NCBI RefSeq assembly: GCF_000196855.1
Contig: NC_014319.1
Coordinates: 372,001 to 436,000, forward strand
Reading direction: 5' to 3'
DNA from: Leuconostoc gasicomitatum LMG 18811
Lineage (GTDB): Bacteria > Bacillota > Bacilli > Lactobacillales > Lactobacillaceae
Length of the DNA stretch: 64,000 nt
Both the position numbers and the translations under genes were made by a program. The notes under the pieces were generated by a model. The model ran no database searches. It saw only the letters and a program-made list of their open reading frames with translations, and was not told the DNA's origin. Shown piece by piece: positions 11,825-16,428 of the stretch. The number at the start of each line of letters is the position of its first letter. Positions within the stretch are counted from its first letter, which is position 1.

Positions 11825-11853
11825 TTGACATCTCACAAAATGAAAGTTATAGT
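11825..11853 (+). promoter_or_regulatory. Promoter of the methionine T-box operon
   Basis: TTGACA at 11825-11830, a 17-base spacer and TATAGT at 11848-11853. This is near-consensus for the housekeeping sigma factor and places the transcript start close to 11860, just ahead of the T-box leader. Confidence 0.82.
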
Positions 11854-11859
11854 AAAGAC

Positions 11860-12188
11860 AACATAAACGTTGAAAAGATAAGTACAATTTTAGGTCTTAA
11901 CAAGAGAGCTCGTGGTTGGTGAAAGCGAGTAAGATATGTCGTTGGAAAATGGTCTTGGAGTTTCATGGATACGAGCCAGCGCGTACTCATATGTACGGCG
12001 CAGTGAGTTGAAATCGGTAGTGCTCGTTAACGCACAACGTATAACCTGGAAGTTTTCACAGATGTTCTCGACGATTTCTAACGGGCGTACGTTAAGGTGT
12101 GGGCGCGAGAGCCCTGCATGAACACCGGGTGGTACCACGTTATTGAAGCGTCCCGTAATCTACATTATAGATTACGGGACGCTTTTTA
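11860..12188 (+). promoter_or_regulatory. T-box riboswitch leader, probably methionine (ATG) specific
   Basis: A long leader with all T-box landmarks: AGAGAGCTCG followed by GGTTGGTG at the base of stem I, AGTAAG, the T-box core GGGTGGTACCACG at about 12127-12139, and a terminator (12146-12162 with the complementary arm ending at 12184) running into T residues. The stem I base pairs GCTCGT (11908-11913) with ACGAGC (11971-11976). The likely specifier ATG lies at 11965-11967 on the 3' side of that internal loop, matching tRNA-Met. Binding of uncharged tRNA-Met should favour the antiterminator and expression of the methionine genes that follow. The T-box call is firm; the specifier assignment is by eye and by context. 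Confidence 0.9.
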
Positions 12189-12239
12189 TTTTATAATTTG
12201 TCATATTATTAAGTGAAAAATTAGGGAAGGCGATAAAAA

Positions 12240-12695
12240 ATGAGTGTGATATTACAAAACGGTTTGTTGAAACGTGAACGATTGACATTTGGTGTCCGTA
12301 TGGCACATGTCAGTCGGTATGCTCAAAAAATTGCTGAGTATCTTTCAGCACACATCAAAGTAACACGGGTCTTATATCCTGCGTTAGTCAATCATGACGG
12401 GCATGATATTCAAATGAAACAGGCCAATTCAGGTGATGCAATATTAAGCTTTGACGTAAATTCTGCGGCTCATGCGAGACCGGTTGTGCAATTTTTTAAA
12501 TTGCCAGTGTTTTCTGTTTGTTTAGGTGCAGTGGACATAATTATTAGTTTTCTATCGAAGATGAGTCATGCGGCGTTAAACGCGAAGCTATTAGCAAATG
12601 TGGGTATTTCACCAGGATTACTTCGTTTCTCAGTCGGTTTGGAAGATACGGATGATTTAATTGCCGATCTAGAACAATCACTTGTACAAATTTAA
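12240..12695 (+). pseudogene. Remnant of a cystathionine gamma-synthase/beta-lyase family gene
   Basis: This open frame of 151 codons encodes only the C-terminal domain of a PLP-dependent trans-sulfuration enzyme. The intact families are about 380 residues. Recognisable pieces are the RM-x-H segment, VLYPAL, and FKLPVFSVCLGAVDI through MSHA to LLRFSVGLED-DDLIADLEQSL. The PLP-binding lysine region and the whole N-terminal domain are absent, and the segment ahead of RMAH appears shortened compared with the usual WLLLRGLKTL region. It directly follows the T-box, so it was presumably the first structural gene of a methionine operon (metB/metC type). It cannot be catalytically active as it stands. 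Confidence 0.82.
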
Positions 12696-12745: not shown

Positions 12746-13870
12746 ATGATAACAACTACAACTAAATTGCATTATCGTTTTGATCAGGTTGGCTCTTATT
12801 TACGTCCTGATCGATTAAAAAAAGCCCGTGAGCAATTTGCTAACGGTCAGATTGATAAACAAGCATTATTGATCATACAACATGAAGAAATAAAAAAAGT
12901 TGTTGATGAGCAGGTAAAGGTTGGTTTATCGGCGGTGACTGATGGTGAATTTAATCGCTCATGGTGGCATTTAGATTTTTTAGGGCAACTCGGAGGTTTT
13001 GAATTTTATGAACAAGAAAATTCGTATAAATTCCATGGTGCTAATACACGGACTACTAATGTACGTTTGAATGGTAAGGTTCACGCGAACTTTGCACATC
13101 CTTTTTTTGAGGATTTTACTTATCTGCAATCAATTGTACCAGCTGGGATTGAAGTGAAACAGACGATACCATCACCGACCTTAGTCATTAAACGTGATCA
13201 TCGATCCGATTTGTGGTCAAACTATTACGCGACTTGGACAGGATTTTTGGATGATGTCGCACAGGCGTATCATGATACTTTGCAACATTTTTATGATTTA
13301 GGTGCACGTTATATTCAGTTAGATGATACAACTTGGGCATATTTAATTACACAATTGAATGCAAATCGTGATAACCTAAAAGAGCGGGAAAAGTATGAAC
13401 AACTTGCTGAAGATAATGTTTACGTGATTAATAAAGCGTTGTCAAATTTACCAGATGATTTGAAATTATCGACACATATTTGTCGTGGCAATTTTAAATC
13501 AACTTATTTGTTCGAGGGTGGGTATGAACCTGTTGCAAAATACTTGGGGCAATTAAATTATGATGGCTTTTTCTTAGAATATGATGATGCACGTTCAGGC
13601 GATTTCAAGCCGCTATCTGATATTTGGCATAATCGACAAAATGTCGAAATTGTTCTTGGGTTATTAACCTCCAAGTCAGCTGATCTAGAGGATGAAAAAA
13701 CCATTATATCTCGCATTATTGCGGCACAAAAATATGTACCAAAAAGTAATCTTGCATTATCTACACAGTGTGGCTTTTCTTCAACCGAGGAAGGTAATGT
13801 ACTAACAATTCCTGATCAATGGCAAAAATTAGCTTTAGTTAAAAAAATAGCTGACGAACAATTAAGTTAA
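12746..13870 (+). CDS. MetE-like cobalamin-independent methionine synthase family protein (YxjG/YxjH type)
   Basis: A 374-residue protein matching only the C-terminal catalytic half of MetE. Members of this shorter family transfer a methyl group to homocysteine or a related thiol to give methionine. Zinc-ligand motifs are visible: THICRGN (His and Cys), a Glu in FFLEYDD and the late Cys in STQCGFSS. It begins RFDQVGSYLRPDR, the usual start of YxjG/YxjH proteins. It lies 50 bases after the broken trans-sulfuration gene in the T-box operon, so control by methionine supply is expected. The ribosome site is weak; a small hairpin (GCTGTT with AACAGC, 12709-12731) precedes it. Confidence 0.87.
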   Translation: MITTTTKLHYRFDQVGSYLRPDRLKKAREQFANGQIDKQALLIIQHEEIKKVVDEQVKVGLSAVTDGEFNRSWWHLDFLGQLGGFEFYEQENSYKFHGANTRTTNVRLNGKVHANFAHPFFEDFTYLQSIVPAGIEVKQTIPSPTLVIKRDHRSDLWSNYYATWTGFLDDVAQAYHDTLQHFYDLGARYIQLDDTTWAYLITQLNANRDNLKEREKYEQLAEDNVYVINKALSNLPDDLKLSTHICRGNFKSTYLFEGGYEPVAKYLGQLNYDGFFLEYDDARSGDFKPLSDIWHNRQNVEIVLGLLTSKSADLEDEKTIISRIIAAQKYVPKSNLALSTQCGFSSTEEGNVLTIPDQWQKLALVKKIADEQLS

Positions 13871-13978: not shown

Positions 13979-14455
13979 ATGGCAGAAACAGTTGTTGAAA
14001 GTTTTACATTAGATCACACAAAGGTTAAGGCACCTTATGTACGCGTTATTGAGTCACAAAATGGTCCACAGGGTGGACACATCACAAACTATGATTTACG
14101 TTTGACACAACCTAATGAAACAGCTATTGAAACTGGTGGATTGCATACGTTAGAACATCTATTTGCAGGGCTTGTGCGTGATGAAATTGATGGGATTATT
14201 GATATGTCGCCATTTGGTTGCCGCACAGGATTTCACGTTATTTCTTGGGTAGATTATGATGCTGAAACACTGGCGAAAGTATTCAAAAAAGTACTTGAAA
14301 AAATTGTTAGTGATGAAATAACGGAAGTACCAGCTGCTGAAATTGAGAGCTGCGGTAATTTTAAAGATCACAGTTTACATTCAGCAAAAGAATGGGCTAA
14401 AATTATTTTGGCACAAGGCATTTCAAGTGATGCATTTGAACGCAAAGTTGTCTGA
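13979..14455 (+). CDS. luxS: S-ribosylhomocysteine lyase
   Basis: LuxS splits S-ribosylhomocysteine into homocysteine and the AI-2 precursor DPD, feeding the activated methyl cycle. The 158-residue protein carries the metal-binding HTLEHLFAG (H-x3-EH) motif, the GCRTGF segment with the catalytic Cys, and the late ESCGNF metal Cys. AAGGAG lies just ahead of the ATG. The neighbouring MetE-like gene could remethylate the homocysteine it releases, so the pair forms a short recycling unit. It ends 370 bases before oppA. Confidence 0.95.
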
Positions 14456-14829
14456 ATACAGCATTACAATCAATTGCTAATATGACACTAGCAACAAAGA
14501 AGAGCAAAGTATAGATGAATCATTAAACAGAGAGCTTCATACAAAGGGTAACATTAGGAAAATGGTTTCGGGGTTATCGTCATTGTGAGTGTGTTGTTAT
14601 AAACACAAACAATTATCGGATAGTGACACGAAATGTCGTCGCGCAGTCTTATATAAGGCTGCGTTTTTTTATATGTTATATTGAAAATGCTGATGATTTG
14701 ATTTTGGCACTTGAATAAGCTGTAAAGAATGTTTAATACGAGACAATGTCAGTAGTTGTAACAGCACTGATTGGTAAATATGTGTTAATCTTAAATATAA
14801 TCGATTACATAATCAAGGGGAATTGAGAG
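14456..14829 (+). other. 374-base intergenic leader region upstream of oppA
   Basis: No gene is visible. The stretch includes ACAGAGAGCTTC at 14527-14538 and GGAAAATGGT near 14557, both resembling landmarks of the methionine T-box upstream, then a hairpin-rich segment and a strong terminator at 14642-14670. A canonical T-box core (TGGTACC) is absent. It may be a decayed or divergent leader, or simply the luxS terminator region. A TTGGTA (14771-14776) and TATAAT (14796-14801) 19 bases apart could form the oppA promoter. Confidence 0.4.
14642..14670 (+). terminator. Intrinsic terminator between luxS and oppA
   Basis: CGCAGTCTT at 14642-14650 pairs with AAGGCTGCG at 14655-14663 (one G-T pair, loop ATAT), followed by seven T residues. 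Confidence 0.88.
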
Positions 14830-16428
14830 ATGAACAACAAAATTATCATTGGACTTGTGGCTACAGGTGTGATTATTGGTGGCATTGTCGTAGCTACAAA
14901 ATCGCAACAATCAACGGATGGAAAAGTCTTACGTATTGCAACACAAAATAACATATCAACACTTGATCCTAATTACGCTGATGAAATAGGTGCTAATTGG
15001 GCGGAGGTACAAACGCTAGAAGGCCTCTATACCACTGGAAAAAATGGTGAAATCGTGGCCGGCGTGGCTCAAAAGGTTGTAAAACCAACAGAAAATAATA
15101 CAATATATACACTACATTTGCGGAAAAATGCAAAATGGTCAGACGGTACGAGAGTAACAGCGCAAGATTTTGTTTCCTCAGTCAAACGACAAGTGGATCC
15201 AAAAACAAAGTCAACGCGTGCCAATCATTTTAAGGATATTGCTGGATACGATGCTGTTTATAATCATCATGCAAATTTGGATCAGTTAGGTATTCAGGCT
15301 GTTGATCAATATACAGTTAAAATTCAATTATCACATCCTGTCCCTTACTTTGATTTTATTTTAGCTAACCAACTGTATCCTATTAATCGCGCTAAGGTGA
15401 AAGAATACGGTAAAAAATATGGGCAAACTGCGGCGACAACAGTTTCCAATGGTGCGTACACGATTAAAAAATGGAATCAAGCATCAACAACATGGGAATT
15501 TGCAAAAAACAAGTACTATAGTGATAGTAAAGATGTGCACTATGACACCATTAAAGCGACTCAAGTAACAGACACAACGTTAGCAGCAAAACAATTTCAA
15601 ACGAAAAAAGTAGATGAAGCAACTGTTTCAGGTAGTGTATTGTCTAATTTGAAAAAGACCAATGCCGATGACATTAAAGCAACTGCTGCAGGACGTGTTG
15701 CCTTTATTGTTTGGAATGCTAATGATAAAGTTGCTAGTAACTCTAATTTAAAAAAGGCTGTGAGTTTAGCAATCAATCGTCAAACCTTGGCTGACGAAGC
15801 ATTGGGTGATGGCTCTAAACCAGCAAAATCAATTATACCTAGTGGTGAAATTAAAATTGCTGGTAAAGATTTAAATGATGGTTTATCACTACCTTATAAT
15901 AAAATCCAAGCACAACAATACCTTAAAAAAGCGCAGTTAGAATTAGGTCAGAAAAAAATTGATATGACGCTTAATACAGCAGATACGGACGCTTACAAAG
16001 CAGTGGGTGTTTTCTTGAAGCAAAGTATTGAATCTGCATTGCCTGATGTCACGATTAATTTGAACCGATTACCTTTAAATGCTGAAATTTCAGCTTTTAA
16101 TAATCACAATTTCCAAGCGGGCACACTTTCGTGGTCAACGGACTATGATGATCCAATTGACTTTTTGGATATTGCTTATTCAAAGGGTGCTATTAACTTT
16201 ACAAAATGGAAAAATGATGCCTATGATAAAGTTTATGAACAAATTAATAGTCAAAATACTGCTAATGATGCACGTTATCAATTAGAACGAGAAGCAGCCA
16301 AGATTAATAATGAAGAAAATGGTGTTACGCCACTGTACCAGACATCAAATGTGCATTTACAAAGTAAGACCGTTAAAAATCTAAATTATCCATTAGTTGG
16401 TTATCAAAACTATAAATATGCTAAATAA
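14830..16428 (+). CDS. oppA: Peptide ABC transporter substrate-binding protein (OppA-like) without a lipobox
   Basis: A 532-residue extracellular solute-binding protein of family 5, which captures oligopeptides for an Opp-type importer. Signatures include TLDPNYADE near residue 45, WSDGTRVTAQDF, and SWSTDYDDPIDFLD in the C-terminal lobe. The N-terminus (MNNKIIIGLVATGVIIGG) is a signal or anchor segment with no cysteine, so the lipid attachment used by nearly all Gram-positive OppA proteins is not possible; it may be held by an uncleaved helix. No permease or ATPase genes are adjacent, so it is an orphan that would use a transporter encoded elsewhere. Confidence 0.9.
   Translation: MNNKIIIGLVATGVIIGGIVVATKSQQSTDGKVLRIATQNNISTLDPNYADEIGANWAEVQTLEGLYTTGKNGEIVAGVAQKVVKPTENNTIYTLHLRKNAKWSDGTRVTAQDFVSSVKRQVDPKTKSTRANHFKDIAGYDAVYNHHANLDQLGIQAVDQYTVKIQLSHPVPYFDFILANQLYPINRAKVKEYGKKYGQTAATTVSNGAYTIKKWNQASTTWEFAKNKYYSDSKDVHYDTIKATQVTDTTLAAKQFQTKKVDEATVSGSVLSNLKKTNADDIKATAAGRVAFIVWNANDKVASNSNLKKAVSLAINRQTLADEALGDGSKPAKSIIPSGEIKIAGKDLNDGLSLPYNKIQAQQYLKKAQLELGQKKIDMTLNTADTDAYKAVGVFLKQSIESALPDVTINLNRLPLNAEISAFNNHNFQAGTLSWSTDYDDPIDFLDIAYSKGAINFTKWKNDAYDKVYEQINSQNTANDARYQLEREAAKINNEENGVTPLYQTSNVHLQSKTVKNLNYPLVGYQNYKYAK

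Follow-up and report, generated by a model that had tools for sequence, protein, structure and literature searches.

In the 64,000-nucleotide stretch of Leuconostoc gasicomitatum LMG 18811 DNA analysed here (the window), which is part of a closed genome of 1,954,080 bases, an old internal deletion has very probably reduced a methionine operon to a pseudogenic metA'-'metC fusion followed by intact genes, and the methionine T-box leader of this operon has been kept by selection for the metE-like gene and perhaps for luxS. The ancestral operon would have consisted of the T-box, metA, a metB-like, a metC-like and a metE-like gene, followed by luxS, and approximately 2.7 kb of it was lost between direct repeats of short length in metA and the metC-like gene; the loss is evident from comparison with relatives, and from it we infer the mechanism, namely recombination or slippage. 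The outcome is an in-frame fusion of 151 codons with neither the MetA nor the PLP-binding domain, which by its substitution pattern decays as a pseudogene behind a promoter, T-box and terminator that purifying selection would have retained. As suggested by the T-box anatomy and by the T-box-yxjH-luxS operon of Lactobacillus paracasei, uncharged tRNA-Met would still govern, through this leader, how strongly the metE-like gene (and perhaps luxS) is transcribed, and the unit would now act as a homocysteine-to-methionine recycling operon instead of a de novo operon.

The methionine T-box leader

The leader, including antiterminator and terminator, occupies positions 11861-12190 of the window (+ strand, as for all window features below) and was delimited with RF00230 and the orthologous leaders. 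In a covariance-model e-value scan the RF00230 match at 11861-12158 (+) scored 86.9 bits (E 3e-19) and covered the full length of the model (1-219). Since this score is below the curated Rfam gathering score of 93, the T-box is absent from the default Rfam list for the whole window and appears in the e-value scan. All 18 orthologous Leuconostoc leaders, the window leader among them, match RF00230, and only 6/18 reach 93 (11 of the 17 others also score lower), so that 86.9 bits is a normal score for this ortholog set. A sigma-70-type promoter, TTGACA-17-TATAGT, was found at 11825-11853 by consensus scan (11/12 matches). Such a match is weak evidence by itself, with 17 sites of this kind in the region versus 15.6 expected, and the TTGACA is present in 18/18 aligned leaders. 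The original prediction of a complete methionine T-box with its own promoter is thus borne out by the covariance match, the AUG motif, the terminator and the promoter; the element is real, but its start had been placed at the terminator, whereas the leader begins 285 bases upstream.

The AUG at 11949-11951 lies inside the motif GAAAATGGTCTTGGAG (motif start 11945), which is identical in all 19 aligned leaders, including that of L. fallax, and we take this AUG to be the specifier codon, in a register presumed from the Rfam alignment and from the general anatomy of T-boxes. A second candidate, the ATG at 11965-11967 (TTTCATGGATACGAG), was rejected because it is unconserved in the alignment, whereas GAAAATGGTCTTGGAG is conserved. 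The leader alignment and the antiterminator fold place the T-box bulge UGGUACC at 12130-12136, its UGGU being expected to pair with the 3' end of the tRNA. At position 12135 the window leader differs from the UGGUAAC found in 16/17 other-species leaders and from the UGGUAGC in the remaining one (G012); UGGUACC is the Rfam consensus, and UGGUAUC precedes the NlpA gene of the window genome. An intrinsic terminator stem-loop of 18 pairs at 12145-12185 was recognized by both terminator scan and folding, and the segment 12145-12192 has a folding energy of -29 kcal/mol (z -11 versus shuffled sequences). RNA ending at 12158 folds as an antiterminator with the UGGUACC bulge and longer RNA folds into the 18-pair terminator; the antiterminator fold by itself does not surpass shuffles in stability (z 0.44). 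Moreover, 73 pairs are predicted in the consensus fold of the 19 leaders, and for 27 of these at least one sequence has both sides changed with the pairing preserved. Read from its sequence, the element carries the features of the RF00230 methionine class, namely covariance match, AUG specifier, UGGN bulge and alternative predicted antiterminator and terminator folds. A guessed, home-made pattern for tRNA-Met genes gave 0 matches in the genome, a result that is uninformative on its tRNAs.

The fusion ORF and the genes behind it

As predicted, the ORF at 12240-12695, which encodes 151 amino acids, retains only the C-terminal domain of a PLP enzyme: its PF01053 match (E 4e-36) is limited to profile positions 246-380 of 381. 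The missing part is the one that carries the catalytic lysine in this family, and in the profile search the PLP-binding domain was absent from the product, which is a remnant and not a PF01053 member enzyme. The first 15 codons (12240-12284) encode residues identical to those with which metA begins in L. gelidum and L. inhae, and these 15 codons are all that is left of metA, the MetA catalytic domain (PF04204) being absent from the ORF. They are followed by the deletion junction at 12285-12293, identified by comparison with L. gelidum; codons 16-18 of the ORF (ACATTTGGT) correspond to a short direct repeat common to metA and the metC-like gene. In L. gelidum the repeat ACATTAGGT occurs in both genes in the same codon frame, with the two copies 2,692 bases apart, and the metC-like copy in L. 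inhae reads ACGTTAGGT. Since the repeats share their codon frame, a deletion between them yields an in-frame metA'-'metC fusion. The remainder of the ORF (12294-12695) comes from the final third of the metC-like gene, as defined by PF01053 positions 246-380, and its substitution pattern is that of neutral decay. The sequence comparison indicates that one deletion removed nearly all of metA, the whole metB-like gene and two thirds of the metC-like gene. The idea of a destroyed first gene therefore stands in so far as only the C-terminal domain of a PLP enzyme is left, but the first gene was metA, and the ORF is a fusion.

The two genes that had been named behind the ORF are both present. The first intact gene behind the T-box (12746-13870) encodes a YxjH/MetE-like B12-independent methionine synthase (PF01717). 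This window protein was scanned with Pfam only; the NF004875 score of 669.8 bits versus a cut-off of 576 is that of its L. inhae ortholog, to which it is 94% identical. It is followed by luxS, encoding S-ribosylhomocysteine lyase (13979-14455; PF02664, E 8e-50, positions 2-150 of 154). Pairwise dN/dS values of 0.06-0.09 for the metE-like gene and 0.01-0.04 for luxS indicate purifying selection on both. A consensus scan of the + strand directly upstream of luxS gave no strong promoter-like site.

The ancestral operon across Leuconostoc

The nearest relatives by MetE-like protein, the same-species draft aside, are L. gelidum KCTC 3527 (96%) and L. inhae DSM 15101 (94%). Both carry, in this order, the T-box, metA, one metB-like and one metC-like PLP gene (369 and 379 aa, respectively), the metE-like gene (374 aa) and luxS. 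The order metA, metB-like, metC-like, metE-like was found in 16/17 other-species genomes of the genus, with the T-box ahead in each, so the comparison with relatives that had been proposed did reveal the PLP genes missing here, both of them in the operon of 16/17 other species (in G003 the metC-like gene contains a stop). The genes are named here after their best matches in NCBIfam; because metA and both PLP proteins score below the curated cut-offs, the exact enzyme names are provisional. The stop in G003 (L081) lies at codon 35 of the metC-like gene in an otherwise complete operon and may represent early decay or an error in this 90-contig draft. An additional metE-like copy with three in-frame stops (G008:C6:906738-907843) is likely a pseudogene.

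A comparable loss was found in a second genome (G015), in which metA and the metB-like and metC-like genes are gone and the T-box (99.4 bits) stands directly before the metE-like gene; MetA was not found in this genome. Its sister G002, identified in a three-protein tree to which L. fallax contributed no luxS and four genomes no permease, has the full operon. Since this sister and L. gelidum, the sister of the window, both keep the full operon, the losses in G015 and in the window are separate events. In the outgroup L. fallax the T-box is likewise followed by the metE-like gene and no MetA match was obtained, loss and original absence being indistinguishable there. The L. fallax permease gene beside the metE-like gene is split into two ORFs (L092 7161-8551), possibly by a frameshift.

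Around the locus, an assembly with the title 'UNVERIFIED_ORG: Leuconostoc inhae KCTC 3774' (G004) shows 99.8-99.9% identity to the window. It was counted as the same species and is probably a mislabelled strain, as L. inhae DSM 15101 differs (MetE-like protein 94%).

Decay of the remnant and retention of the T-box

Changes were assigned to branches with L. inhae as outgroup and L. gelidum as sister of the window, that is, for one branch with one outgroup. On the window branch the metC tail acquired 30 nonsynonymous and 14 synonymous changes, distributed almost evenly over the codon positions (16/12/16), compared to 2 nonsynonymous and 10 synonymous changes on the L. gelidum branch (p 0.002). 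The 30N:14S of the remnant also differs from the 8N:17S of the metE-like gene (p 0.005) and from the 54N:193S of seven pooled neighbouring genes on the same branch (p 4e-9), and is no different from the share expected by sites alone (p 0.21). With 0.099 nonsynonymous changes per site (30/304), the remnant comes close to the 0.109 synonymous changes per site of the neighbouring genes on the window branch and has therefore probably been unconstrained for most of this branch. Moreover, 13 of 70 residues that are invariant among orthologs are altered in the remnant, versus 0-3 for any usable ortholog tested alike; for this count 16 orthologs were intended, 15 were counted and 13 extended to the end, G003 having been left out because of its stop at codon 35 of the metC-like gene, and G013 and G018 being shortened at the end, where their genes are open further on. 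The neutral substitution pattern implies that the deletion is old, and the recent deletion that had been offered as an alternative is disfavoured by codon-position and N:S patterns that are neutral over most of the branch.

The frame of the remnant is still open, with 0 indels over 399 sites. Selection for an open frame was considered and is not established, since simulated neutral substitution leaves the frame open with a probability of about 0.23-0.39. The absence of indels fits full neutrality a little less well, and it lends some weight to an explanation in which selection keeps the frame open for the sake of translation, which would bring ribosomes to the start of the metE-like gene or shield the mRNA, the amino acid sequence being free to vary. 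At the rate of 8 indels per 126 substitutions by which intergenic DNA of the window differs from that of L. gelidum, about 2.8 indels would be expected along with 44 substitutions, which gives a rough Poisson chance of 0.06 for none at all, a value that we infer; the spacing from the ORF to the metE-like gene, 50 bases in the window and L. inhae and 51 in L. gelidum, also fits such coupling. However, the frame stays open by chance in 23-39% of the simulations, the few per cent obtained by combining both chances are a post hoc figure, and G015 has no such ORF, its leader being followed at once by the metE-like gene. We therefore regard coupling or message protection as improbable, and slightly more so its specific form, in which the metA'-'metC ORF would be a content-free translated spacer, selected to stay open and indel-free so that ribosomes support the metE-like gene as the sequence drifts.

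In contrast to the remnant, the T-box changed at only 6/330 sites on the window branch versus 44/399 (Fisher p 4e-7), a per-site change approximately six times slower. On the L. gelidum branch no such difference was seen (5/330 versus 13/399 for the metC tail, p 0.15), as expected when both are under constraint. None of the six T-box changes falls in the specifier or the UGGU, one of them being UGGUAAC to UGGUACC. A second methionine T-box provides a comparison within the same lineage. In L. inhae this second T-box (L068 11227-11497, 93.2 bits) is followed by another metE-like gene and by a gene for an O-acetylhomoserine sulfhydrylase that scores above the family cut-off, and both genes are absent at this place in L. 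gelidum and the window. Alignment to the L. inhae T-box revealed its scar at 14476-14670 (+), with all its genes deleted, and alignment to the L. inhae gene end revealed a tail scar of the deleted sulfhydrylase gene at 14668-14737 (+; end approximate); no Rfam match was obtained in 14400-14900 up to E 0.5. The scars (14476-14737) are located between luxS and an oppA-like gene, 2.3 kb downstream of the first T-box. In both the window and L. gelidum the scar has lost an internal part, and UGGU has become UAGU. On the window branch the scar changed at 27/189 sites versus 6/330 for the first T-box (p 4e-8) and did not differ from the remnant (p 0.28), and on the L. gelidum branch it changed at 13/189 versus 5/330 (p 0.002).

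Since the T-box without genes decayed and the one before the metE-like gene and luxS did not, selection most likely holds the latter for the genes behind it, as the original prediction had proposed. The locus thereby represents a natural paired experiment on riboswitch survival, in which, within approximately 3 kb, a gene-backed methionine T-box was conserved and a gene-less one decayed at the pace of a pseudogene. The opposing view that the T-box is a relic, no longer important and surviving only because the deletion is recent, draws on the nearly unchanged leader and the still open ORF, and it appears quite unlikely given the 44 changes of the remnant, spread evenly over codon positions, against 6/330 in the T-box, the altered invariant residues and the decay of the orphan T-box in the same lineage. 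Still less probable is that the 151-aa protein functions as a C-terminal domain on its own; its ORF has a start codon, a leader and a strong domain match, but the near-neutral N:S ratio, the even codon-position changes, the loss of conserved family positions and the missing PLP-binding part speak against function. A truncation by sequencing or assembly error, which had been named as a possible refutation, did not materialise and is hardly credible: no point in its favour was found, 11825-12695 is letter-identical in G004, junction included (a match that confirms the assembly and, at 99.8-99.9% identity, does not represent an independent lineage), and the remnant differs from its relatives throughout, beyond the junction alone.

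Comparison with known T-box systems

The closest parallel is found in L. paracasei FAM18149, in which a Met-specific T-box with an ATG specifier, yxjH and luxS are reported to be co-transcribed (PMC6004538). The window shares with this operon the methionine T-box with AUG specifier, the YxjH-type methionine synthase and luxS. Unlike in L. paracasei, the T-box is separated here from the yxjH-like gene by a pseudogenic metA'-'metC ORF, and the arrangement is derived by deletion from a larger operon. Since the T-box-yxjH-luxS order is already known in lactobacilli, the unit described here is a reduced form of a known arrangement, and it illustrates the reduction of a de novo methionine operon to a recycling unit of the lactobacillar type. 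In the L. paracasei study, yxjH exceeded its level in cysteine-deficient medium by 1.3 log2 units when methionine was deficient instead, the difference for luxS was not significant (0.4 log2), and a separate promoter was suggested for luxS (PMC6004538). In view of this result and of the suggested separate promoter, T-box control of luxS in the window is uncertain. Ordinary T-box control of the remaining genes is, by analogy, most likely the mechanism here.

In Staphylococcus aureus, another study places a methionine T-box ahead of the biosynthetic operon metICFE-mdh, and its Table 1 gives 6 predicted Met T-boxes for Leuconostoc mesenteroides (PMC3771891). As in that operon, the T-box of the window is located ahead of methionine-synthesis genes; unlike in the S. 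aureus operon, the homoserine-activating and trans-sulfuration genes are gone. A T-box serving a methionine auxotroph is also known, with which the window leader would share its role; that T-box controls uptake and not recycling enzymes behind a pseudogene. No title or abstract on this L. gasicomitatum locus was found in the literature searched, and an earlier notice is possible.

Consequences for methionine metabolism

A search for PF04204 gave no MetA match in the window genome and was positive in 8/14 control genomes; likewise, MetX was not found in a search that was positive in 9/14 control genomes, none of them over the cut-off. With MetA and MetX both not found, homoserine is probably not activated. 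Six PF01053 matches are present in the genome: one full-length, one the remnant, and four partial and weak (17.5-28.1 bits), two of the latter being just over the cut-off of 27. The full-length protein fits best to cystathionine gamma-synthase/lyase models, with scores below their cut-offs, and by best match is not of the O-acetylhomoserine sulfhydrylase type. The expected lack of trans-sulfuration towards homocysteine is therefore supported by the MetA and MetX searches and by the type of this protein, but an intact Cys/Met PLP enzyme remains. Its gene lies between a PALP-family (cysK-like) and a hexapeptide-transferase (cysE-like) gene, a cluster that resembles the cysK2-ctl1-cysE2 operon of L. 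paracasei, which PMC6004538 links to methionine-to-cysteine conversion.

From the gene content, de novo homocysteine synthesis was probably lost, the recycling genes and the one intact Cys/Met PLP enzyme remaining. Homocysteine released by LuxS could be methylated by the MetE-like enzyme together with MetF, or by an S-methyltransferase, and a methionine auxotrophy that is relieved by homocysteine is predicted. Methionine-synthesis genes were reported absent in Ln. lactis and most Ln. pseudomesenteroides lineages (PMC5289962).

Among the 20 T-boxes found in the window genome, three carry the exact motif GAAAATGGTCTTGGAG, namely the window leader and the T-boxes before an NlpA (MetQ-type) lipoprotein gene and before an amino-acid permease gene. 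A fourth T-box (481230-481496) has GAAAATGACC, which was also read as AUG, and the two genes after it resemble NlpA lipoproteins by eye. The permease gene is followed by those for homocysteine S-methyltransferase (1298300-1299163) and MetF (1297275-1298084). Judged by the genes behind them, the methionine T-boxes of this genome serve import and homocysteine methylation. The cluster of methionine T-box, amino-acid permease, homocysteine S-methyltransferase and metF (G000:C1:1297275-1300958, - strand) suggests the use of S-methylmethionine.
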